34,174 nucleotides of DNA from a virus, in IMG/VR virus record IMGVR_UViG_3300030451_004293, positions 1 to 34,174 of that record; one strand, 5' to 3'. The notes beneath the pieces were generated by a model. The model saw nothing but the letters and a program-made list of their open reading frames with translations. It ran no database searches and was not told where the DNA came from. Each line of letters opens with the position of its first letter. Positions within the stretch are counted from its first letter, which is position 1. This document shows positions 1,824-34,174 of this stretch, piece after piece. A program made the position numbers and the translations under genes.

Positions 1824-2108
1824 TTATTTAATTCCGTTAATGTGATCTACCTCAGGCAACCTCATTTTATTTCCAATGTTACCTTTAGTTACTTTACGTA
1901 TTTTTTTCTTTCTATCACGTCTTCTTTTTGACCGTGCTTTTTTAGCAGAATCAGAAGCATGATACTTGTTGTATTCATATTTATAATCGCGATTACCGTT
2001 TTTATATTTGCCATTAGCAGTAAACTTTTTACGCTTACTACCTTTCTTACGGCTTTTTTCGTTTTTACCGCGATTTGACTTATGTGATATTACTCTTAGC
2101 TCACTCAT
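1824..2108 (-). CDS. Basic protein resembling a permuted HNH-type phage protein (94 aa)
   Basis: A 94-residue, very basic protein whose ATG shares one base with the stop of the 2891-residue gene (TAATG). The centre (about residues 40-70: YKYEYNKYHASDSAKKARSK, then RRRDRKKK) resembles short phage proteins of the type YKxYHxSxxxKKxRAxRN that normally continue into an HNH-like end, VDHxxG followed by NLRVxSxxxNR. Here VDHINGIK lies at the extreme C-terminus, while an LRVISHKSNRG segment is at the N-terminus, so the order of the pieces looks swapped. I recall this family from marine phages and cannot verify it here. Nuclease activity is unproven. Confidence 0.6.
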   Translation of the reverse strand: MSELRVISHKSNRGKNEKSRKKGSKRKKFTANGKYKNGNRDYKYEYNKYHASDSAKKARSKRRRDRKKKIRKVTKGNIGNKMRLPEVDHINGIK

Positions 2109-5100
2109 TAGAATGGTTCTTCTACTTTATAATTTATTGTTGGATCATAGCCAACTTCCTCTTCTCTCATGTGTTCCCATATAGGTTCTATTGCTTTACC
2201 AATACCTGTTGCTGGAACACCAAGTCCTATTTCTAAAGCTGGTTTTGTTGCTTTAGCCCATTTTTCAATGGCATCATATATGTCTTCTGGCTCTATCTCT
2301 TCTTGCGCTTTTAATAATTCTTTATTAAAATTTAAAGCCTGTACTGTACCTCTACCAAAAGCTTCTATAGGACTTTCTAAAGGGGACATTCTATATCCGT
2401 AGTTTAAATCTTCAATATATAAATTTGTAAAAAAGCTTATAATATCTTTCATAATAAACATACCGTTAAAACTGCCTACTACAGCTGCTCTCATATGAGA
2501 TCTAGGAATAGCTCCTATTTCTATCTTATCCCAATTTTTCCATGAAGGATCGTCAATCCACGCCTGCATATTAAATTTTAAATCTTCTCCTCTTTCATCA
2601 TCGTCCATCATATATTTACGAGCGTAATTAAATGCATTTGTAGCACCTTGGAATAGTTGAGGTAATATAAAATGATATATTATTACTTTTTTTAAGTTTT
2701 CTAAGGATGTACCTTTTCCAGCACTTTGAGCTCGTATAGCCGCTCTTGATTGTCTATAATAAGACATTGGAGATGTAGCATACATAGCCATCATTTTACC
2801 TATAGGGTCTCTTTGCCCTACAGATAAATCAGATGCTTCAGATGCTTGCTGAGCAAATCTTGTTGACGCTTCAAATTCAGTGGCTGCTATTTCTCTTGCT
2901 TCTTGTTCTGTCTTTCCAGCTTCTAAAGCTTTATTGTATTCGTATTTATATTTTGGCCAGCCTCCAATTATAATAGCTAGTCTATCACCAAATACAACAG
3001 GAGACATTAAAGCATTCGTTAATCTTTTCTTTGCATAAGCGACTTTGTTTGGAACTCTTTCAAATTCAGCTGGACTTAGTACCTGTGCTAAAGCGTCATC
3101 AAATTGTAATCTTGAGTAACGTTTTTTCATATAAGGTAATGCCATTAATGTTTCATAAGCTTCTTTAAACTCTGGTAATAAAGCCTCTCCTTTTGATGTG
3201 TCACCAATTCTTGCTAGGTTTAATAAACCTTTACTAAACTCAGTTATTGGCATGTCTGCACCATAAGCTACAAAAGATGTAAGCTGCTTTAACGCAAGAG
3301 AAGGCTTTGCCCCTAAACTACCTATTACGTAGTTTGATCTTACAGTTTGTATTGTTTGCAATAAACCGTTCATTTCTCTTTCCTTACCAGCAAAACCACG
3401 AAGGTTCATATTTAAGTATTTATTATACTCAGGTCCAAAATCGTCGTTTATTTTATCTTTAACAGCTTCATTATTAAATACATTATTTAAATCAGTTAAA
3501 GGCTTTTGGTATGCTTTAAAGAACTCCATTTTATGTACAAAGCGTAACAACATATTATTAATATCTTGTTTAGCTAAAGCCATTGAATTATTTTGTTTTT
3601 CTTTAAAGTGACTGCTTGTCATTTGCTGATAAAAAGCTTCGGGTGTAAGTAAGTCAATTCCTTCATTTAACATATTAGAATCTAACTTTCTCATTACAGG
3701 AGAATACTTTTTATTTTTTGGTAAGCTAAATCCATAAACACCTCTAAAGACTTTATCCAAATTGGTATGGCCTTCATATAGTTCACCGTGTGAATACGCT
3801 GGGAAAAATTCATTTACAACAAAATCAGCCCATTTCATTAACTGAGGATCTACTAAATCAATAATAGCTTGTCCCTTATTAGTAATTTCATAACCTCCTT
3901 GTGTGTCTCTTTCATATGCTTCTTGCGCTGACTTCCTGATTTGAGCCAGTGCTTTTTCATGAGCCGAAGCTTGCATTTTTTGTTTAGCCTTTTTTGCCTT
4001 TGAAGAAATAGCTTTATCATCAAATTCTTTTTCAATTGCTTCAAGTTTTAACTTATTTATAGTGTTAATAGCATTTACTGCTTGCTCAACTGTTCTTGTT
4101 CTTAAACCTTCAAAGCCTTGACCTACAACTTGTATTTCAAGTTGATTGTACGCTTCAGCATCTTTTTGAAAGTCTTCAAATGATTTGTATCTTTCTTTTA
4201 AACTATATTTTCTACGCATCATACCCATAGTCTCAAAACCGCGATGGTTTGTAGGGTCTTGCATTTCAATATATATTTTAGCAGCTTCATTAGCTGACCA
4301 CTGTTCTGTTTCAGTTTGAGGATTACCTTCTTCGTCTAAATATTGTATGTATTTTTTAGTTTTATTTTTTCTTTCATTTTCTCTAAAAATATCAGTAACA
4401 TTTTTTTGATATTTATTTTTATTACGAGTATTTGCACTAGCGTCTAATTCTGCTATGTCATATATTTCTCGCATTTTTCTATTTAAAACTTCTAATACAG
4501 CATATTTATTTTGGTGATAATCGTTTTCAGCTTGTGACATTCTATTTAAAGCAAACTTTACAAGTGGGCTTTTAAACGTTTCACTTTCGCTATGATTTAT
4601 AGATAAGTCATCTAATATCGAATAAATATTTTGTGTACCATATAAGCCTAAATTAAGCCTAGGGCCTCTATATCTTTCTCTTGTGCCACCAAAAAATCTA
4701 GTTAAAAATGATCTTCTACCTTTTTTACCTCCATCACCCTCTAATATATCAAGAGCCATTCTTATATTTTCTTCTGTTTCTAAAGTACCTGTTTTAAATT
4801 CATTACCTTCTATCTCACCTTTTTTGAATGCATCTTTACCAAACAACTCAAGTTTTTGTATTGCTTTAAAATGACTTTCCCAGTTTGATTGAAAATCTTC
4901 AGTAGTAAAATCAACTAATTTTAATGCAGTAATCCATTGTTGTATTTCAGCTTCATAATCTTTATCTGTAGCTTTAGGATTTTCTTTTAAATATTGTTCG
5001 TGTAAAGCACTACGTTTAGCTTCGCCTTCTTCAGATGTAAATAGTTTTGATGTAAACTGGCTATATTGAATAGCTTCTTTTAACCAATTGTCGAGCTGTT

Positions 5101-8100
5101 CTTTACGAGCTCCAATAACATCACCATTGTAATCTACAATAGCTTCTGATATTTCTCCCAATGCTTTTAACTTATCCGCTGTTTTATCGTCATACAGCTT
5201 ACCTAATCCTTGCGGACCGCCTGATCTTTTTACAAAAGTTTTCTTTTTACCAAACTTAGAAAGATATTCTAAATAAGTATCAGGGGTTGTAACTTTTTCT
5301 CTTGCTATAAATAGCTCTGTATCTGGTGCAGCTTCAATCGTAACCTGCTGACCTAGCTGTTCATATTTATGTCCAAAAGGAATAAACTTTTCAGGGTTAG
5401 TTTTATTAACTCTATCAAGAGCGTAACCTAAATAGCCTTTTTCTCCGGTATAAGGTACATCATAATCAGATTGCATTATTTGAAATATTGCTTCATGACT
5501 TAGTGCATCAAAGCCTCCTTCATAAGCTACTTTGTCATAAGCATTAAAAGCTTCAGCCATTTTAGCAATTATTTCACCATTTGAATTATGATATGATGCA
5601 GTTAAATCTAATAACCGCACTATAGTTTCGTATCTATTTAGTATTTCAGCTCTTTCTGTTTCAGTTAAGTTTTCTTTACCTCTTGCTTGTAATTCGTTAT
5701 ATCTATTTAATACACTTTTATTTAAATCATTAAATACAAATCTAAGAGATGTAGGTAAGTAATCTTTAATTTTAGGCATTTGAACAACATTTCTACCACC
5801 ACCTAATAAATTTTCAATTGCAGTTTTTTCAGCCATTGCAACTGCATAAAACTTATCATTAAATCTTTGCTCTTGATATGAACTCCAAGTTTCTAATTTT
5901 TTAATATTAGTTTGCTTGTTTAATAGCTCAATATATTCTTCTCTTGATTGCTCACGTTCTAAAAATTCTTGCTGAGTTTGTATATCTTTTAAATCTTTTT
6001 GATTTTTTTCTTTTTCTTTTCTTAATTCAGTTGTATTTACAAGAAGTGGTTTAATTCTTGCAGCCATATTTTTATCTAAATATAATCCCGCAAACTTATT
6101 CATCACATCTCTTGTATTAGTGCCAAGTCCTAATCCGCTTTCTAAAGATTGGATAGCATGTTGTGTTTCATGAACTATGACACTTAAAACGTCTTTACCA
6201 GGCAAACCGCCCTCCATTAAATCAAATAAATCATTATCACTTGTTATGTTATATTCTTGCTTAAAAAATTTTAATAATTCTTCTCTTGACTTTGTTTTTA
6301 ATTCTGGGTCTAAATATATTTCAATACCTTTATTAATATTTGCAAAAACACCATGGGATTTTCTAGCTTGCTCTGTAAACTTGAAAGTAAGTTTCATATC
6401 AGCCAGCTCTGGGTAATATAATTTATATGGACCTTCTAATATTCTGCCAAGTGACATACTATAGTTTAAAGGACTAGCGGCGCTTGTTTTAGATATTACA
6501 TCTACTATATTTTCTAATGCGCCTTCAGTAAAATAACCTGGCCCTTCAAAAGACATCAGCTTACCAGTATTATTTAAATAGTAACCTGTTTCTTTATATA
6601 TATCAAACGGACTTTGATTATCTCTTCTCATTTCACGAGCAATCATTAAGTCATCATATATTTTTTCACCTGGCTTATGCTTTTTTACTATCGCACTTTC
6701 GCCTATAATATTAAAAGATTCATTTTCAGCTTTACCTTCTATAATAGGTAACTTTATTTCAGGACTGAATGATAATCTATTACCAGAACGAACAGCTCGT
6801 ACAATTTTATTTTTAAAAGAATTTAAATCAGATAAATCGCCAACAGTTATTTTTCTAAAGTCTGTACCTGTTTTTGTAAATAATTCAGTCATGGCATTGC
6901 CTATAAGGTTACTGTAAGCTGTTTTTAAGCCACGAGTAACGCTAGGAGTGAGTTGATCTTTAGCAAGTTCACTACCAAGCCATTCAGCCATTGTTTCGTT
7001 TAATATTAGCTTTTGGTTATCTGCTAATTGTTTAGCTAGTTCTACATCAGTAGGTATACCTTTTATTGGTTTTTTATAATTTTGTTGTGCCCACGCATAT
7101 TTTTCAGCATATTTTTTATTTGTTTTCATTTGAAACTCCAACTCTCTATATGCTTCGGGTGCTACAACTTTAATCATTTCTAATAATGGATGTGCAAGCT
7201 CATGAGCTAATATATAAGGAATATCTCTTGATTTTAGCGAAGAGTCTATAGACACATCAACATGAACTATATTGTCTTTACCTACAATAAAAGGATTTTT
7301 AGATTGTTTTAAAGCATCCGATTGTATTTGGCGTAAATCTTCTCTAAACTTTGTTTCGCTATACCCTTCTACACCATCTATTTTAGAACGGCCTTTATTA
7401 AATTTAGAAATAAGATTAGCGCGTTTTTCTGCTGCACGAGCATTAATAACTTTTGCAAGTGAATTAGCTTCAGTGTGAAATACAAACTTTACACCAATTT
7501 CTTTTGGCATAATATTTAAAAGCTTTTTAGCCACTTCAAGCCCTTTTAATAATTTAGGATTTCTTTGGTGTCTTTCTTTTTGTTTTTCAAATCCTATTTG
7601 ATTGTCAACAGTATTATTGCTTATTTCAACAACATTAAAGCTACCGCCTGTTTCTTTACCATCTCCAATAAATTCAGGTGTTTTATTATTTATATTTCTT
7701 TTTTCAGCTTCAAATATTTCTGTTGCTCGATCTTTATCAGCCTGTTTTATTTTTTTAACTTGACCTTTACTTAATCTATAATATTTACCATCAGCCCCTC
7801 TTCTTACAAAATATCCTGATAAATTATTATTACCTTCTATATAAGAATAGTCACCACCAGTACCACCGGTTTTACTTTGTCTTATTCTAAAATAAATAGG
7901 TCTTTCTTTACCAGACTCCATGTCAATAAAAGCTTGTTCTCTTATTATACCATATCGCTGTAAATATTTAGCTCTTGCAACTTCCTGGTCTTCTTGTCTT
8001 TTTAAATAATAATTATACATTTGCATTGGAGCATACATGCCACTTATTTTTTCAAAGTCTTTTTCTGTAAACTCAACAGCTTGTGAACCGTATAATTTTT

Positions 8101-10783
8101 TATTTAATTCATTTAATTTATTAATATATCGTTTACTTGTTTTTTTCCAAAACGGCGGTTTATATAATAAATTATTTATAAGACCTGCTTGTAAGTCTAT
8201 AATGCCATTTGCATAGGCTCCAGCAGAAGTACTATTGTTATCTATTATAGTTTGCTTTTGAATAAAGTTTTCTACATTTTTTTGAAAATCAAATGCATAT
8301 TTTAAATCGGCATCAAAAGCTTCTATCTTATCTTTATTTATTTCGCGGCCTTTTCCTCCCCACACAATATCATTTGATAAATAATTACGTGCCGCTATAA
8401 TATCTGCCTTTTTAGTAGCAAAGTCTTCTCTCATTCTATCCTTTACAAGCTTTAAGGGGCTAACGCCGTTTTTGCCTGTTGCTGGATTATATGTTGAACT
8501 ACTGCGTAATAAATTACCTATACTAGCAGGATTATAAGCCTCTGATATGCCTAAAAATGAATTTAATGCAAGATTGAATAGTAGTCGCCTACCAACCTCA
8601 TCTACACCTGGAAATAGTTCATCAAACTTTTCCATAAAAGTATCATCATATCTTGCTATTTCATAAAAGCCACGAGTCATTTCAGCAGCTTCCATAGCTA
8701 ATGTAGCTGATGAAGCTTTACCTAAATTACCTAAAACATTTCTTTTAAATAATCTAGCATACATAGGTTTAGGTTGCCAAGCACCAAATAGTTTTATTGG
8801 GAAAAATCTAGCTGCTCCAAATCCAAAACCTGCACCGGTGTGTCCTCCAACGGTTTGAAAAGCAACTTCTTCCATTGTACCTCCTATCATTACCATCATC
8901 ATTTTTTCTTTAAAAGATAAACCAGATAATAATTTACCGCCAGCATCTACACGTTTTTTATAATAGCTACCTAAAAGTCCGTTTTTAGATAACCCTGTTA
9001 ACTTTTTTGCAAGCTTAGGATATTTTTGTAATCTTTTAGCTGAAGCTAAACCGCCTAATGTTGTGGACACATAGCTCCCTCCTAAAAATATAGGATTCAC
9101 AACTTTTTTCGCAAAATATAATTTCCCTACTAAAGAAGTCATATCACCAACGGCCATGGTAAACTCTTCGCCTGTACTAACTCCTAAAGCTTCTTCTTCC
9201 TCGTCGTATAAATCAATGCCAAATTCATTTAAAATATTAACTGCGGCAGCCTCTTTATATTCGGGCGTACCAAAAAGAGCGGCAGCATCTATAGGATTTA
9301 CTCCTAAGCCTTGAATTAATCCTTGGCCAAATTTTTCTGCTTTATATGTATCTAAAGCTTCTTCACCTGTTAAATATCTATGATTTAGTAAATAGTAATG
9401 ATTTATAGCTTCTGCATCTGCTTTTGCTAAAAATAATTTTTTTCTTAATTTATCAAATTGAATATCGCCTTCTGCGTCTATACCAAACCTATCATCAGCT
9501 GCTCCCGCTGGTCTATTTTGATAAAAGTTTTTAATTTGATTTTCTAAATCGGCAACATGCACATTAGATTTAAGCCATCTATTTTTTAATGTATGCAGTT
9601 CGTCTGGGTTTTGCAAATCGTACATGTGCTCTAAAATATCAAAACGATATTGAGCCTCGTTTGTTAATTCAACAGCCTCTTGTTCTGTAACCCCATCTAT
9701 AATCTCTCCTTTTGTATTACGAAGAAATTTACCAAAACCTACTTTATCTCTTTCAGCCTCAAGCTTTGCTAATATTTCGTTATATTGATTTTGAGTTGTA
9801 AAGTTTGGTGTAGCTTGATATGTTTCATAAGCTTCATTTAATTGTTCATTAAGCTCATATATATTTTTTAATGTTGGGTTTTCTGTATTAAGATTTTCTA
9901 AAACAGTATTCAAAGTAGCATCATGCAGCTGATTATATGCAATAGCTTTATTTTTATTTTCCCAATCTAACTCGCTGTCATATTCAATACCTGATAATAT
10001 GTTACCTAGCTTAGGTGCATTAGGTAAATTTGTTGTTTCGTTTAAACCCCAAGTTTGTATTTGTGATTCTTTAAGCTTTGCTATTTGTTCACTAAAAGCA
10101 GACTGCCACGAATTTTCACGAGCATCATCAGCTCGTTTTGTTTTTATATTATACTTATATTCTTCACGTATTAAATCAACTAATTCTTTTCTGTCATCTT
10201 CAGTATATAACTCAGTCGCAAAGCCTTGCTCTCTTATTTGGTTTGATATTTTTTCTGCTAGCTGCCCTCCTATTTGTGTATTAATTTTTTCATCTATATG
10301 TTCATCAACACTTTTTTCTTCTCCATTTAACCAAGATTCAAAATTATCATCATTTAAATAGACATTATTTAATAGACCAAAAGGCTCATACTTATAATCT
10401 ACATTTTCATAATTGTTTTCTTGAAAATTAAAATCAATATCCAAAGAATCCATAATCTCTTGCTTTTTATCAAGAGAGTATTGCTCTGCCCATGTAGGCG
10501 GATCTTGTTTTTCCTCTTCTGTGTCATATTGAGATGTTGTAGGCTGTACAGATTCTTCTTTTAAATAGTCAATATAGCTCTGTACTCTATCTTCGTCTTC
10601 AGAAACTCTTTCTTTAAATATTTGAACTTTAGCTTTATCTTCTTCGCTAAGTTCTTCAAGAGGGTCTATATCTGTACTAGATACATTAATTGTATCATTA
10701 GGTGTAACAAGCGTAGTATCAACAGTACTTACGGCATCATCTATATTCTGCAAGTCTGCAGTTAAATCTAATTCGTCTGACAT
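2108..10783 (-). CDS. Giant internal/ejection virion protein, polyvalent type, with two HExxH motifs (2891 aa)
   Basis: The largest gene in the window, last of three internal-protein genes, in the place occupied by T7 gp16-like ejection proteins. Visible parts in order: an acidic disordered N-terminus (1-130); helical region (130-540); Gly-rich hydrophobic or amphipathic region (about 550-680); a zincin-like motif HELAH at 1194-1198; a second motif HETQH at 1538-1542 in the context IVHETQHAIQ, which resembles the LPD23-type domain of phage polyvalent proteins; long helical segments; and a C-terminal region (about 2490-2720) with SLALKQLTSFVAYG and a hydrophobic stretch YHFILPQLFQGATNAF, as in membrane-penetrating ends of ejected proteins. 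It probably enters the host with the DNA, cuts host protein or cell-wall peptides and helps form the periplasmic conduit. Function is inferred; the motifs are read directly. Its ATG lies 6 bases after the previous stop. Confidence 0.85.
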   Translation of the reverse strand: MSDELDLTADLQNIDDAVSTVDTTLVTPNDTINVSSTDIDPLEELSEEDKAKVQIFKERVSEDEDRVQSYIDYLKEESVQPTTSQYDTEEEKQDPPTWAEQYSLDKKQEIMDSLDIDFNFQENNYENVDYKYEPFGLLNNVYLNDDNFESWLNGEEKSVDEHIDEKINTQIGGQLAEKISNQIREQGFATELYTEDDRKELVDLIREEYKYNIKTKRADDARENSWQSAFSEQIAKLKESQIQTWGLNETTNLPNAPKLGNILSGIEYDSELDWENKNKAIAYNQLHDATLNTVLENLNTENPTLKNIYELNEQLNEAYETYQATPNFTTQNQYNEILAKLEAERDKVGFGKFLRNTKGEIIDGVTEQEAVELTNEAQYRFDILEHMYDLQNPDELHTLKNRWLKSNVHVADLENQIKNFYQNRPAGAADDRFGIDAEGDIQFDKLRKKLFLAKADAEAINHYYLLNHRYLTGEEALDTYKAEKFGQGLIQGLGVNPIDAAALFGTPEYKEAAAVNILNEFGIDLYDEEEEALGVSTGEEFTMAVGDMTSLVGKLYFAKKVVNPIFLGGSYVSTTLGGLASAKRLQKYPKLAKKLTGLSKNGLLGSYYKKRVDAGGKLLSGLSFKEKMMMVMIGGTMEEVAFQTVGGHTGAGFGFGAARFFPIKLFGAWQPKPMYARLFKRNVLGNLGKASSATLAMEAAEMTRGFYEIARYDDTFMEKFDELFPGVDEVGRRLLFNLALNSFLGISEAYNPASIGNLLRSSSTYNPATGKNGVSPLKLVKDRMREDFATKKADIIAARNYLSNDIVWGGKGREINKDKIEAFDADLKYAFDFQKNVENFIQKQTIIDNNSTSAGAYANGIIDLQAGLINNLLYKPPFWKKTSKRYINKLNELNKKLYGSQAVEFTEKDFEKISGMYAPMQMYNYYLKRQEDQEVARAKYLQRYGIIREQAFIDMESGKERPIYFRIRQSKTGGTGGDYSYIEGNNNLSGYFVRRGADGKYYRLSKGQVKKIKQADKDRATEIFEAEKRNINNKTPEFIGDGKETGGSFNVVEISNNTVDNQIGFEKQKERHQRNPKLLKGLEVAKKLLNIMPKEIGVKFVFHTEANSLAKVINARAAEKRANLISKFNKGRSKIDGVEGYSETKFREDLRQIQSDALKQSKNPFIVGKDNIVHVDVSIDSSLKSRDIPYILAHELAHPLLEMIKVVAPEAYRELEFQMKTNKKYAEKYAWAQQNYKKPIKGIPTDVELAKQLADNQKLILNETMAEWLGSELAKDQLTPSVTRGLKTAYSNLIGNAMTELFTKTGTDFRKITVGDLSDLNSFKNKIVRAVRSGNRLSFSPEIKLPIIEGKAENESFNIIGESAIVKKHKPGEKIYDDLMIAREMRRDNQSPFDIYKETGYYLNNTGKLMSFEGPGYFTEGALENIVDVISKTSAASPLNYSMSLGRILEGPYKLYYPELADMKLTFKFTEQARKSHGVFANINKGIEIYLDPELKTKSREELLKFFKQEYNITSDNDLFDLMEGGLPGKDVLSVIVHETQHAIQSLESGLGLGTNTRDVMNKFAGLYLDKNMAARIKPLLVNTTELRKEKEKNQKDLKDIQTQQEFLEREQSREEYIELLNKQTNIKKLETWSSYQEQRFNDKFYAVAMAEKTAIENLLGGGRNVVQMPKIKDYLPTSLRFVFNDLNKSVLNRYNELQARGKENLTETERAEILNRYETIVRLLDLTASYHNSNGEIIAKMAEAFNAYDKVAYEGGFDALSHEAIFQIMQSDYDVPYTGEKGYLGYALDRVNKTNPEKFIPFGHKYEQLGQQVTIEAAPDTELFIAREKVTTPDTYLEYLSKFGKKKTFVKRSGGPQGLGKLYDDKTADKLKALGEISEAIVDYNGDVIGARKEQLDNWLKEAIQYSQFTSKLFTSEEGEAKRSALHEQYLKENPKATDKDYEAEIQQWITALKLVDFTTEDFQSNWESHFKAIQKLELFGKDAFKKGEIEGNEFKTGTLETEENIRMALDILEGDGGKKGRRSFLTRFFGGTRERYRGPRLNLGLYGTQNIYSILDDLSINHSESETFKSPLVKFALNRMSQAENDYHQNKYAVLEVLNRKMREIYDIAELDASANTRNKNKYQKNVTDIFRENERKNKTKKYIQYLDEEGNPQTETEQWSANEAAKIYIEMQDPTNHRGFETMGMMRRKYSLKERYKSFEDFQKDAEAYNQLEIQVVGQGFEGLRTRTVEQAVNAINTINKLKLEAIEKEFDDKAISSKAKKAKQKMQASAHEKALAQIRKSAQEAYERDTQGGYEITNKGQAIIDLVDPQLMKWADFVVNEFFPAYSHGELYEGHTNLDKVFRGVYGFSLPKNKKYSPVMRKLDSNMLNEGIDLLTPEAFYQQMTSSHFKEKQNNSMALAKQDINNMLLRFVHKMEFFKAYQKPLTDLNNVFNNEAVKDKINDDFGPEYNKYLNMNLRGFAGKEREMNGLLQTIQTVRSNYVIGSLGAKPSLALKQLTSFVAYGADMPITEFSKGLLNLARIGDTSKGEALLPEFKEAYETLMALPYMKKRYSRLQFDDALAQVLSPAEFERVPNKVAYAKKRLTNALMSPVVFGDRLAIIIGGWPKYKYEYNKALEAGKTEQEAREIAATEFEASTRFAQQASEASDLSVGQRDPIGKMMAMYATSPMSYYRQSRAAIRAQSAGKGTSLENLKKVIIYHFILPQLFQGATNAFNYARKYMMDDDERGEDLKFNMQAWIDDPSWKNWDKIEIGAIPRSHMRAAVVGSFNGMFIMKDIISFFTNLYIEDLNYGYRMSPLESPIEAFGRGTVQALNFNKELLKAQEEIEPEDIYDAIEKWAKATKPALEIGLGVPATGIGKAIEPIWEHMREEEVGYDPTINYKVEEPF

Positions 10784-30058: not shown

Positions 30059-30365
30059 TATTTTTTGCCATTTTTTCTACAAAGCCTTGTTTAAATGCTT
30101 TTTTATCCTCAGATATTTGATCAAGATAATCTGCATCTTCTGCTAATTGTTTTTCTAACTTAGCAATACCTTCTAATATTTCTTGTGCGTCTAAAAAAGC
30201 TTTTTTCTTACTGTCTAAAGCATTTTTTCTTTTTTCATCTAACACCTCGTCTGATATAGGCTTTTCAACATCATTAATTAATGTTTCAATAGCCATTTTA
30301 CCGGCGTCTATAAGCTTTTGAAGCGTACTATTTATATATTGCTTATTATCCATTTTTAATAGCAT
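30045..30365 (-). CDS. Small helical protein in terminase-small-subunit position (106 aa)
   Basis: A 106-residue, almost wholly helical, highly charged protein (EILEGIAKLEKQLAEDADYL; DEKRKNALDSKKKAFLDAQE) directly upstream of TerL and overlapping it by 14 bases. Position suggests the small terminase subunit that recognises DNA ends, but no helix-turn-helix is obvious. Alternatively it is a chaperone-like or scaffold helper. Two starts are possible: ATG at 30365 (overlapping the co-chaperonin stop by 20 bases) or ATG at 30353, giving MDNKQYINST and an overlap of 8 bases; the second has the A-rich leader usual here. Confidence 0.6.
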   Translation of the reverse strand: MLLKMDNKQYINSTLQKLIDAGKMAIETLINDVEKPISDEVLDEKRKNALDSKKKAFLDAQEILEGIAKLEKQLAEDADYLDQISEDKKAFKQGFVEKMAKNNGVR

Positions 30366-30948
30366 ATATTGAGTGTGTACGCACTCTGTAAACTACATCA
30401 CCTCCAGGCATTTCTATATCATAGTCTCTACCCTTAGCAAACATTATAGTGTCGCCTACTTTACCTCCTCCGTCAATAAACGTGTCATCTGCTACTAAAA
30501 CTTTGCCTTCACCTTCTTCGTATCTTTTTGTATATCCTGTATATATACCACTATCAGTAACTTCTTCTTCGTCGCACTTTTTAGTTATAATACAAAAAGG
30601 CCCTATAGTTTTATAACTACCGTCAGGCTTAATACTCATATACATCATACCTACATCCAAAAAAAAGTAAAATGAATTACATTCATTTCCATCATCAAAT
30701 TCAATTGGCTTTGCTTCTTGAGTTGCAAAATGATGTATTAACACTTGATCGCCAACATCAATGTTTTTATTTCTTTTAGACTTTTTAAGAGGTTCTTTAA
30801 TTATTGTAGCTATCGTTTGAGCGTTTTGTAAAGGATTAAATGTATTATCAACATAAATTTCTTTTCCGCCTAAATATCTTTTTTTGTGTAAAGAATCTAC
30901 TCTAATTATATATTTATCAATTGATGTAGCATTATTAGGAATTTTCAT
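30346..30948 (-). CDS. Tandem GroES-like (Cpn10) co-chaperonin (200 aa)
   Basis: A 200-residue protein that appears to contain two GroES-like domains. Domain 1 (about 11-105) starts DKYIIRVDSLHKK and carries VGDQVLIHH at 65-73. Domain 2 (about 116-198) starts GPFCIITKKCDEEEVTDSGI, has EGKVLVADD at 147-155 (the position of GEVVAVGPG in GroES), KVGDTIMFAKGRDY at 163-176, and closes with VYRVRTHSIYAIKNG, like the YLIMxxxDILAIV end of GroES. Two Cpn10 domains in one chain resembles chloroplast Cpn20. It probably replaces host GroES and works with host GroEL to fold capsid or other large virion proteins, as T4 gp31 does. Identification is from pattern matching only; a mobile-loop GGIVL-type contact is clearer in domain 2 (SGIYTG). 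Confidence 0.72.
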   Translation of the reverse strand: MKIPNNATSIDKYIIRVDSLHKKRYLGGKEIYVDNTFNPLQNAQTIATIIKEPLKKSKRNKNIDVGDQVLIHHFATQEAKPIEFDDGNECNSFYFFLDVGMMYMSIKPDGSYKTIGPFCIITKKCDEEEVTDSGIYTGYTKRYEEGEGKVLVADDTFIDGGGKVGDTIMFAKGRDYDIEMPGGDVVYRVRTHSIYAIKNG

Positions 30949-31213: not shown

Positions 31214-31603
31214 TTATTTTTTTGAAGATCCTCCGAAAAAGAAATCTATTATAGTATTTACTTTGCTTGACATAGCACCAAATACTGTAGATATAAAACC
31301 AATTTCATAATCAGACAATTCTAGCTGATTCATTACAAAGTACTTAAACATAAAATAAGATATAAAAAAGTAAGCTGATGTAAATATTACAGCTAATACT
31401 TTTTGTATAAAACCATCGCCTGAAAACATAGTTCTAGCGCTGCTTCTATCCTGCACCTCAAGTGCAAACATATCTTTTTCATGGTCTTGTACAACTTTTT
31501 GAAATTGTTGTTTTAATTGTTCTCTTTCTTCGTCCGTAGTAACAACTTCATCTATTATTGTAGATGCTTGCCCTACTAATGATTTAATTATATTTTTTAT
31601 CAT
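31214..31603 (-). CDS. Holin, 3-TM / GTA-holin-like family (129 aa)
   Basis: A 129-residue protein with the architecture of GTA_holin_3TM-type holins: an amphipathic N-terminus (IKNIIKSLVGQAS), a charged helix (DEEREQLKQQFQKVVQDHEK), the typical DRSSARTMF motif at about 52-60, two hydrophobic segments (VLAVIFTSAYFFISYFMF at about 69-86; IGFISTVFGAMSSKVNTIID at about 101-120) and a GGSSKK end. It would form pores in the inner membrane at the end of infection so that the endolysin reaches peptidoglycan. Its ATG overlaps the endolysin stop by four bases (ATGA), pairing the two genes. Confidence 0.85.
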   Translation of the reverse strand: MIKNIIKSLVGQASTIIDEVVTTDEEREQLKQQFQKVVQDHEKDMFALEVQDRSSARTMFSGDGFIQKVLAVIFTSAYFFISYFMFKYFVMNQLELSDYEIGFISTVFGAMSSKVNTIIDFFFGGSSKK

Positions 31604-32067
31604 AATGCTTTTATATTATCTTTTGCGTGTCTATATGCTGTTTTACCTTTGTCATTTTTATATGCTTCTAAAACTTGTCTTCTATTAGAATCACAAAATG
31701 ATATATGAATCCAGGCAAAATCAAACTCATTTATCATTTGATCAAAATCTAAACCTGAGTTTAGTATCCAATCATACATAATTTTGTTATTCATTTCGCC
31801 GTCTTTCCAAAACTGTAAATCCAACGCTTGGCCTTTGCAGTGTTGTGAAGTACGACTTCCACCAATAGCTTTGTTGAGTTTAGGGCTGCGATAACCACTG
31901 CTAATACGAATAGGACCAATAGCATCGCGCATAGGCTGTATAAGTTCTGTAATGAGCAACTGCATTGCTTGAAGATGTTCTTTATTAGGCTCATTGCTAA
32001 TTCCTAACCTTTTTGCTGTATTACTTTTTGTTATTTCAGATAATACAAAGTTTTTACTTAATCTCAT
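31600..32067 (-). CDS. Endolysin: peptidase M15 (D-Ala-D-Ala carboxypeptidase/endopeptidase-like)
   Basis: A 155-residue zinc peptidase of the M15A type. The metal ligands are visible: His76 and Asp83 in the segment SRTSQHCKGQALDLQFW, and His121 in WIHISF. The substrate-side motif SSGYRSPKLNKAIGG (about 57-70) precedes them, as in the family. It would cut peptide stems or cross-links in host peptidoglycan. There is no signal peptide, so release depends on the holin encoded directly after it. The N-terminus LSKNFVLSEITKSNTAKRLG is typical of phage M15 endolysins. The start overlaps the stop of a 37-residue gene (ATGA). Confidence 0.92.
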   Translation of the reverse strand: MRLSKNFVLSEITKSNTAKRLGISNEPNKEHLQAMQLLITELIQPMRDAIGPIRISSGYRSPKLNKAIGGSRTSQHCKGQALDLQFWKDGEMNNKIMYDWILNSGLDFDQMINEFDFAWIHISFCDSNRRQVLEAYKNDKGKTAYRHAKDNIKAL

Positions 32068-32178: not shown

Positions 32179-32514
32179 TTAAAAGGCTTCCATTATTATT
32201 TCGTCAACTGAATCTTGTACTTCTTTTTTTGTAGCTTCCATAGTCATCATAATATTTGCTTGAAACCTTTTAGCTTCTTCATTATTATTAAAAACTACTA
32301 AGGTTGGTACAACAACTATTTTATATTCGCTAGCCCATCTTGAGTCAGATGTAATATCTATTCTTTCTGTTTTACAATCTGTTAACTTAGGCAACCAAGC
32401 AACTTCATTTGTTTTATTAAAACTAGCATTAAATTCAACAACAACTAATCCGTCCGAAAAATCTTGCGAACATGCTATTGCTGGAATTAATAGTAAGAAT
32501 AAAAATTTTTTCAT
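32179..32514 (-). CDS. Thioredoxin-fold lipoprotein-like protein lacking CXXC (111 aa)
   Basis: A 111-residue secreted protein. The signal sequence MKKFLFLLLIPAIACSQDF has a basic start, hydrophobic core, and a lipobox-like AIAC with Cys15, so lipidation is likely; a signal-peptidase I site after CSQ is the alternative. Beyond it, VVVEFNASFNKTNEVAW aligns with the thioredoxin strand and active-site region but has SFNKTN where WCGPC should be, while ERIDITSDSRWASEYKIVVV and the cis-Pro motif VPTLVVF are kept. It therefore looks like a thioredoxin fold without redox activity, facing the periplasm or the outer membrane. In the lysis region it could be a spanin-like or envelope-remodelling partner of the preceding membrane protein (inference). 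Confidence 0.68.
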   Translation of the reverse strand: MKKFLFLLLIPAIACSQDFSDGLVVVEFNASFNKTNEVAWLPKLTDCKTERIDITSDSRWASEYKIVVVPTLVVFNNNEEAKRFQANIMMTMEATKKEVQDSVDEIIMEAF

Positions 32515-32516
32515 AA

Positions 32517-32801
32517 TTATCTTAGCTTATCAATCTTCTCCTCCATTCTAATCATTTGTGTTTTTATTTCTTTTACGTCATCTTGTGTAGTCATAATAGT
32601 TTGACGTATTAATTGATCCTTCATGTCATACTCCATACGAGTAATTTCTGGGTCAGGAGGAAGAGGTAATTCTTTAGCATCTGCTATATCATTTTGTAGT
32701 GTAAACCACATTCCTACTAATGTAAATATAAGTGCAGCTATTCCTGCTAATGTTTTTAAACTTATATTAAATGATGTTTCTTCGCTTAATTCTTTTGCCA
32801 T
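32517..32801 (-). CDS. Membrane-anchored coiled-coil protein, possible inner-membrane spanin (94 aa)
   Basis: A 94-residue protein with a charged N-terminus (1-15), one transmembrane segment (LAGIAALIFTLVGMWFTL, about 18-35), a short acidic/proline linker (KELPLPPDPE) and a C-terminal coiled coil (about 56-94; DDVKEIKTQMIRMEEKIDKL). This architecture matches inner-membrane spanins and some small holin-associated proteins. It lies 2 bases after the outer-membrane protein stop and 2 bases before the lipoprotein-like gene, upstream of endolysin and holin. Topology cannot be settled by charge alone. Alternatives are an accessory holin or a virion membrane protein. Confidence 0.6.
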   Translation of the reverse strand: MAKELSEETSFNISLKTLAGIAALIFTLVGMWFTLQNDIADAKELPLPPDPEITRMEYDMKDQLIRQTIMTTQDDVKEIKTQMIRMEEKIDKLR

Positions 32802-32803
32802 TT

Positions 32804-33904
32804 TTAAAATATTACATAATTAAGGCCAACGCTAAAGTTGTGCCATTTGCGATTCCAGTATTTATTATACCTTCCTTCTACAAATATACCCAAACTTTTA
32901 TTAAATCTATATCCGTAAATTAAACCTGCCGAATAATCAATCCATTGACTACCTTTATAATTATAATACGAATATACGTTTTTTGTGTCAATATGATAAG
33001 GCATAATATTACCCCAGCTATGAAACCAAAAGTCTTTTGTAAAATGGTAATAGTCAAAACCTAAAACCGTAGAGTATTCTACTATATTAGATATAGAATT
33101 TCTTTGGGCTTCTACATAATCATCTATTACTTGTGGTATAACAACCTCTTCCCACACTTCTTGACTAGTTGCTACTACCTCTCCATTGGGTGCTAAATAC
33201 TGTCCATCTAATGTTATATTGTATCCCTCTTGCAATGCCAAGTATGTATAGTGTAATGTCCCATTGTCCAGCACCCAGTCTGCCAGGGGGTCAAACCCGT
33301 ATGGTTCTGCAAGACGCTGTACTGCTCCTATATTTACAGATAGCTTACCTGTCTCGCCTATTTTTAATCTAAATCTTTCTGATGCTTCAAAGTATTTTAT
33401 GTCTGCAAAACCATCTTCTAAATACTCTACTTTGCTTATAAATTTATCTGCAATATATCTTACAAAATGATGTTGGTTAGTATAGTTTATTCCTAACCGG
33501 CGTACAAAATCAGCCTCGAATAAATACTCAAAGCCATCGACTCTACCAATTGTGGCAGCATCACTGTATGAATTTTCTGTACCATTATAAAAAGTAAGAG
33601 CCCTGTTTTCATAACCAAATCTTTTTATTTTTCTTATACCTATAGAAAAAGTATAATCAAATGGAGTTTCTATTATGCTTTCTTCTAATGTGCCTGAAGT
33701 AACCGACCATATTTGGTCATTACCTAATGATGTACCTCCATTGACTGCAGCATAAACAGTAGAGTATTTAAATATTTTATGTAATCCTTGTGCATTACAA
33801 GATGTAGAAAATAGAGTGAAAAGTATAATATAAAATACAACTAACACCAACCAAAATGATAAGTACGCAACATCAGGTGTAAAAAATTCTTTTAATCTTT
33901 TCAT
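32804..33904 (-). CDS. Outer-membrane beta-barrel protein, phage-encoded (366 aa)
   Basis: A 366-residue exported protein. A long N-region is followed by a hydrophobic segment (about 16-33, YLSFWLVLVVFYIILFTLFS) and a flavobacterial-style cleavage site TSCNAQ|G near residue 39. The rest shows amphipathic strands with aromatic girdles and turn-rich loops, ending in hairpins YSAGLIYGYRFNKSLGIFVE and WHNFSVGLNYVIF; the final Phe is the usual outer-membrane-protein C-terminus recognised by BAM. Its ATG overlaps the stop of the T9SS-type gene by four bases (ATGA), so the two are coupled. Likely role: modifying the host surface (superinfection exclusion, permeability) or assisting outer-membrane lysis; both are inference. 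Known families not recognised. Confidence 0.75.
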   Translation of the reverse strand: MKRLKEFFTPDVAYLSFWLVLVVFYIILFTLFSTSCNAQGLHKIFKYSTVYAAVNGGTSLGNDQIWSVTSGTLEESIIETPFDYTFSIGIRKIKRFGYENRALTFYNGTENSYSDAATIGRVDGFEYLFEADFVRRLGINYTNQHHFVRYIADKFISKVEYLEDGFADIKYFEASERFRLKIGETGKLSVNIGAVQRLAEPYGFDPLADWVLDNGTLHYTYLALQEGYNITLDGQYLAPNGEVVATSQEVWEEVVIPQVIDDYVEAQRNSISNIVEYSTVLGFDYYHFTKDFWFHSWGNIMPYHIDTKNVYSYYNYKGSQWIDYSAGLIYGYRFNKSLGIFVEGRYNKYWNRKWHNFSVGLNYVIF

Positions 33905-34174
33905 TTCTTTAATACTTTTGTTGTGCTAGTGTTACCATTATATGTTACGCTAAAGCTATATATACCAGAAGGTAATAAACTTACGTCTAGTTGGTTTAGC
34001 CCTTTATGAGTTTGATTTTCTTTTATTTTAATAATAAGTTTTCCTGATATATCATATACCTTTATACCTACCGGTCCGTTTGTTAATATATTTAATATAT
34101 TATTCATAGGATTTGGATACATAACTATATTGTGTCCTCTAAGCAAATCTCTAGTATCTAACTCACTATCACCA
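33901..34174 (-). CDS. C-terminus of a T9SS-exported protein (type A sorting domain, partial)
   Basis: An open frame from the right edge to a stop at 33901. The visible ~90 residues (from GDSELDTRDLLRGHN) form a textbook T9SS type A sorting domain: MYPNPMNNILNIL, GIKVYDISGKLIIKI, then LDVSLLPSGIYSFSVTYNG and TTKVLKK at the very end. In Bacteroidota such domains direct a periplasmic protein through the Type IX secretion system to the cell surface and are removed by the sortase PorU. The N-terminal cargo lies outside the window. A TTG start at 34146 is possible only formally; the frame stays open upstream, so the gene is longer. It overlaps the barrel gene by four bases. Confidence 0.88.
   Translation of the reverse strand, partial: GDSELDTRDLLRGHNIVMYPNPMNNILNILTNGPVGIKVYDISGKLIIKIKENQTHKGLNQLDVSLLPSGIYSFSVTYNGNTSTTKVLKK

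Follow-up and report, generated by a model that had tools for sequence, protein, structure and literature searches.

A mobile four-gene module of marine phages that may recruit the host type IX secretion system to the surface of the infected cell

A gene for a predicted outer-membrane β-barrel protein in a 34,174-base virus fragment (the whole stretch of DNA analysed, referred to here as the window) was found to belong to a module of four genes, which encode a cargo protein of the type IX secretion system (T9SS) with cysteine repeats, the barrel, a 94-aa single-span coiled-coil protein and a secreted thioredoxin-fold protein without CxxC. The module is larger than two genes, phage-specific, mobile and, as far as the literature searched shows, undescribed; preprints and most subscription journals were outside the scope of that search. 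The four proteins are tentatively interpreted as a phage complex crossing the envelope, by which a surface adhesin exported through the host T9SS is anchored or displayed; we assign this reading a probability of about 45%. A wider form of the proposal, held equally tentatively, is that the four proteins make up a phage-specific, horizontally mobile trans-envelope apparatus by which the host type IX system is recruited and the surface of the infected cell rebuilt. To our knowledge, most known cases of phages controlling the host surface involve a single small protein of an enterobacterial phage, and no system of this four-protein composition is known to us. Here, phages with at least four terminase types, uncultivated and marine, share an obligate and apparently envelope-spanning set of four genes.

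The barrel gene (32804..33904, minus strand) is a complete open reading frame with an ATG start and encodes 366 aa. A first-pass annotation had placed it in a phage late region, and genes for TerL, portal and major virion proteins do follow it on the same strand. The window TerL is nearest to those of phages of Flavobacterium, Cellulophaga and Tenacibaculum, with <60% identity, and the carrier is a marine virus of flavobacteria-like hosts. The open reading frame is not a product of chance, because 112 and then more than 550 relatives were found in IMG/VR (112 in a scan with the barrel protein, at least 567 and at least 571 in two scans with the barrel alignment) and because its dN/dS of 0.06–0.12 represents strong purifying selection.

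The bounds of the open reading frame given by the same annotation were exact, and the signal peptide with NAQ cleavage that it described was upheld. Residues 1–39 (33788..33904, minus strand; MKRLKEFF...FSTSCNAQ, followed by G) contain a hydrophobic core; in 224 of 224 barrel relatives with a complete start, this region has a hydrophobic 12-mer as well as a basic start, and 216 of them show an AxQ-like cleavage pattern. Compared with the relative L011, 9 of 39 residues were identical before NAQ and 299 of 327 in the mature part, and this poor identity before and high identity after NAQ argues for a removable signal peptide, presumably cleaved at that site. The long N-terminus (STSCNAQ) was also considered as that of a lipoprotein, an idea rejected because the Cys is not conserved.

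AlphaFold2, with an alignment of 60 relatives as input, predicted a barrel domain of 12 strands over residues 49–363 (32816..33760, minus strand; pLDDT 77, pTM 0.70), in agreement with the outer-membrane β-barrel claimed at first. The predicted strands lie at residues 49–66, 73–92, 124–136, 139–151, 155–164, 169–182, 188–199, 274–288, 292–304, 323–333, 338–349 and 352–363. Strands 11 and 12 pair as a C-terminal hairpin and the last residue, 366, is Phe, as it is in 188 of 224 relatives, which bears out the terminal Phe hairpin of the initial description. A conserved 74-residue insert (EPYG.DPL..W...HYT.LA..EGY..., residues 200–273; 33086..33307, minus strand) parts strands 7 and 8 and contains a predicted helix at 248–270. 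The best matches among solved structures were OmpG (Z 11.1) and CymA (Z 10.6), and TamA and BamA were also matched; FadL appeared at Foldseek ranks 12 and 14 amid generic barrels, and no PorV chain was among the matches listed. These low-identity matches to general outer-membrane barrels support assignment of the model to the outer-membrane barrel fold class, with closure implied by the structural matches and not read from coordinates, and they point to no function.

The most conserved regions of the barrel are residues 93–123, between strands 2 and 3, and the insert; given the usual topology with a periplasmic N-terminus, the former would be periplasmic and the latter extracellular. A porin or uptake channel, changing the permeability of the infected cell to nutrients or toxins, would be consistent with general porins, OmpG and CymA as the nearest solved folds. 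However, such fold matches are generic for any barrel (6–10% identity), the most conserved columns include the strand 2–3 loop and the insert and not the wall alone, and three obligate partners would be left unexplained, making a channel function very unlikely.

No family for the barrel was found in Pfam, NCBIfam or PHROG, where scans of 60 members gave scattered chance matches only; a PDB sequence search with the barrel found none. Lom-type proteins of lambdoid phages are phage-encoded outer-membrane barrels expressed in the host; the present barrel resembles them in both respects but differs in belonging to an obligate four-gene set and in matching none of these three databases, and no search showed kinship between the two. 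The viral protein A0A516LKJ4 in BFVD, which has the barrel fold over its length (TM 0.70/0.75, E 3.8e-24, 23% identity), is likely to be a distant member of the family. In 50,697 GenBank phage records no match was found for the barrel, the 94-aa gene or a full-length relative of the cargo, and the thioredoxin-like gene matched only ordinary Streptomyces phage thioredoxins over about one-third of its length. A profile search of 395 Bacteroidia genomes gave strong matches to the barrel and the 94-aa gene only in one phage-like MAG contig, with no barrel relative in the 394 other genomes. A host origin of the barrel was rejected, the genome matches being confined to phage-like contigs binned with MAGs, and the earlier label of a host-style protein was abandoned, no host family having been matched either.

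Co-occurrence of the four genes was assessed in 118 loci with at least 6 kb on each side of the barrel gene, in which the 94-aa protein was found beside the barrel in 115, the thioredoxin-like protein in 117 and a T9SS-tagged protein, detected by HMM, in 106. Absence of the T9SS partner from the other 12 loci was rejected as an HMM miss: the apparent exceptions inspected (L206, L214, L220 and L229) contain the cargo with a divergent sorting domain, and a search with the repeat motif found the cargo in every large locus. After removal of near-duplicates, the 80 non-redundant loci contained the cargo in 80, the barrel in 80, the thioredoxin-like protein in 79 and the 94-aa protein in 77, while the next commonest neighbour family was present in 32. 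Selection of loci by the other genes gave the same picture. When picked by the 94-aa gene, 36 of 39 loci were complete and the other three lacked only the selecting gene itself, which indicates a miss in ORF calling; when picked by the thioredoxin-like gene, 31 of 32 were complete. The first-pass annotation had proposed a two-gene surface-remodelling unit made up of the barrel and the coupled T9SS gene. The upstream T9SS gene is real and the idea of a unit stands, but the number of genes was too low, the unit comprising four.

Three gene orders were observed (cargo–barrel–94-aa–thioredoxin-like; barrel–94-aa–thioredoxin-like–cargo; 94-aa–thioredoxin-like–cargo–barrel) with the set unchanged, and a shuffled order with a constant set argues for functional over positional linkage. 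The cargo and barrel genes overlap by 4 bp (ATGA) in the window, and a 4-bp overlap is also found in many relatives. Divergence of the barrel was correlated with that of its partners (rho 0.71 for the thioredoxin-like protein, 0.68 for the cargo Cys domain and 0.49 for the sorting domain), a correlation that could come from linkage alone. None of the four module proteins matched a PADLOC anti-phage defence profile.

The window contains the 3′ end of the cargo gene (33901..34174, minus strand), which is cut by the window end. The encoded C-terminus matched PF18962 above the gathering score (E 1.1e-14, 54.9 bits) and scored 18.8 bits against PF13585 (CHU_C), under the cut-off of 27; by these profile scores the sorting domain is of type A and not of the CHU_C-like type B. 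Most complete homologues of the cargo are 601–1161 aa long. Their architecture comprises a signal peptide (in L005, for example, MRKILFALLFSSLACYSQ; the window copy is cut), two β-rich domains, a Cys-rich helical domain with an invariant CC...WD..C motif and the sorting domain, and nearly all complete relatives carry 6–22 GCTDxxAxNYxxxANxDDGSC repeats. In a model of the L083 cargo (pLDDT 78; pTM 0.29, with domain placement unreliable), the C-terminal 68 residues superpose on the translocon-bound NucA CTD (Z 8.8, rmsd 1.9), and this CTD also matched the FspA sorting domain in the T9SS translocon (Z 8.2). Residues 186–287 of the same model gave a weak match to the Ca-dependent carbohydrate-binding module vCBM60 (Z 7.4).

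Repeats of the form GCTDPxAxNY..DDGSC were also observed in proteins of 1201–1456 aa without a signal peptide, encoded in the structural-gene region of carrier phages (L196, 3519–7124; L184, 3753–8027; L177, 3290–7660), hinting at a repeat common to tail proteins and surface cargo. Such cargo-type repeats in tail-region proteins of some carriers, together with the structural genes that adjoin the barrel in many loci, would suit a barrel that is a virion (tail) component. This assignment is very improbable against a signal peptide in 224 of 224 relatives, the barrel fold and the T9SS partner.

The gene for the 94-aa protein (32517..32801, minus strand) encodes an N-terminal membrane span at about residues 16–36 and a conserved, charged, coiled-coil-like tail, for which no Pfam family scored above the cut-off. 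The thioredoxin-fold member of the module (32179..32514, minus strand) is a predicted secreted protein of 111 aa; its profile was matched to thioredoxins (2vim, E 6e-8), and the match leaves out the CGPC segment. CxxC is replaced in this protein (FNAxWNxxN); N33, N36 and the cis-Pro are invariant, the two Asn in nine sequences. An exported thioredoxin fold with two invariant Asn in place of the redox cysteines is unusual in its own right. With signals on the barrel, the cargo and the thioredoxin-like protein and one span on the 94-aa protein, the predicted compartments fit an envelope-spanning set.

In the window the module sits immediately upstream of an M15 endolysin (31600..32067, minus strand; PF08291, phrog_894) and a holin-like protein (31214..31603, minus strand; phrog_3427), which are not constant members, occurring in 31 and 38 of the 80 loci respectively. 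This position suggests a lysis module, in which the inner-membrane coiled coil, the thioredoxin-like protein and the barrel would replace spanins and breach the outer membrane, with the cargo helping from outside. Of the 80 loci, 68 have an endolysin, holin or related lysis gene in the flank, and in 29 such a gene directly adjoins the module; the layout of the 94-aa protein is i-spanin-like, being compatible with Rz-type spanins. However, the remaining 12 loci have no lysis gene within reach, and lysis genes were no more often adjacent to the module than to randomly placed blocks of these loci, except when overlaps were excluded (29 versus a mean of 29.5 at a distance of ≤1; 40 versus 36.6 at ≤2), on which ground a simple lysis cassette was set aside. 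Spanin and holin profiles matched at chance level only (the best for the 94-aa protein was Rz-like, 0.041), and the T9SS cargo would be left unexplained. A role in lysis is a live rival, but it appears rather unlikely and is not favoured.

Several other genes were observed near the module. A hydrophobic protein of 70–98 aa (GFIAFAIMCMIMVADLVTGW...; L004, 5400–5612, and relatives), possibly a small holin-like membrane protein, is encoded within seven ORFs of the barrel in 26 of the 80 loci. The window also encodes a 200-aa protein (30346–30948, minus strand) with a weak Cpn10 (GroES) match of 23.8 bits against a cut-off of 21.1, just upstream of TerL, and a giant protein of 2891 aa (2108–10783, minus strand); in several relatives, the gene directly upstream of the barrel encodes a protein of 2108–3155 aa.

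According to PMC12618676, the host shuttle PorV recognises every type A sorting domain, and a type B substrate often has a genetic link to a PorP/SprF shuttle of its own. The constant linkage of a T9SS cargo to a barrel in the present loci invites comparison with the latter arrangement, and the barrel might be a dedicated T9SS shuttle in a PorP/SprF-type role, needed for secretion of the cargo. Yet the cargo domain is type A, the kind served by PorV, and the sorting domains are variable, with a mean identity of 0.34 and some very divergent members, against more than 52% identity throughout for the barrel. No Pfam match to PorP/SprF (PF11751) was found in 60 barrel members and hhalign against 19 PorP/SprF sequences aligned only 15 signal-peptide columns; for PorV there was no NCBIfam match (NF033710), and hhalign against 20 sequences gave a probability of 1%. 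A PorP/SprF or PorV homologue was rejected on these alignments, and a dedicated shuttle is considered unlikely. Because PorV is the usual shuttle of type A cargo (PMC12618676), anchoring or display is a likelier task for the barrel than export. The pairs of type B substrate and PorP/SprF in Flavobacterium (PMC12618676, PMC9143113) likewise link a T9SS substrate gene to a barrel gene; however, they are host genes, of type B, with another barrel family and without thioredoxin-like or single-span partners.

A parallel in cargo type is Cryophage, like the present carriers a Bacteroidota phage with type A T9SS sorting domains on its proteins, which presumably use the host system (PMC7468147). Three variable genes are involved there (endoglucanase, GH39 and PA14 domain), and the passage that describes them mentions neither a barrel nor a thioredoxin-like or membrane protein linked to them, whereas the marine module ties one conserved cargo family to three constant partners. 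Exclusion of other phages was proposed for the T9SS cargo by the Cryophage authors (PMC7468147).

In the favoured reading, anchoring and display, the host T9SS would carry the cargo to the cell surface late in infection, where the barrel, as a dedicated anchor or receptor in the outer membrane, would hold it. The thioredoxin-like protein would bridge the periplasm to the 94-aa inner-membrane protein, the two small proteins thereby tying the barrel to the inner membrane, so that inner membrane, periplasm, outer membrane and surface would be occupied by the 94-aa protein, the thioredoxin-like protein, the barrel and the cargo in turn. The module would thus display on the infected cell an adhesin of phage origin, possibly with a domain that binds carbohydrates in a Ca-dependent manner. 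The likeliest benefit would lie in an altered surface, as met by other phages or by released progeny; superinfection exclusion, the outcome for other phages, would be the simplest benefit and is plausible. Counting against this role, the vCBM60 match behind the carbohydrate-binding idea is weak, PorV serves type A cargo, so that export has no obvious need of the barrel, and the loops of the barrel show a high conservation that is not usual in surface proteins exposed to antagonistic selection. If the module acts as proposed, hijacking of the T9SS by phages is routine. Studies of superinfection exclusion (or of outer-membrane lysis) in Bacteroidota would then have a defined set of genes to target, and presence of the module in a phage would mark its host as possessing a T9SS.

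Movement of the module between phage lineages was assessed in 50 carriers, whose records are often fragments, by searches with the window TerL and Pfam Terminase_6N. TerL was 46–56% identical to that of the window in 21 of the 50, about 28% in five and about 25% in eight; three carriers, with records of 122–147 kb, had the Terminase_6N type, and none was found in the remainder. The module thus occurs with at least four terminase types. Terminase labels changed 13 times on the barrel tree (minimum 3; shuffled mean 14.9), and the window and L013 share 90% identity in the barrel but only 27%, over part of its length, in TerL. The slight agreement between the barrel tree and the terminase types indicates that the module has been exchanged between unrelated phage lineages as a selectable unit. 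On one 96 kb contig (IMGVR_UViG_3300030116_004105; L002 and L012), barrel copies were observed near the two ends, at 6921–7958 and 94218–95252, one with a long and one with a short signal peptide; the contig may hold two modules, or variants brought together by an assembly wrap-around.
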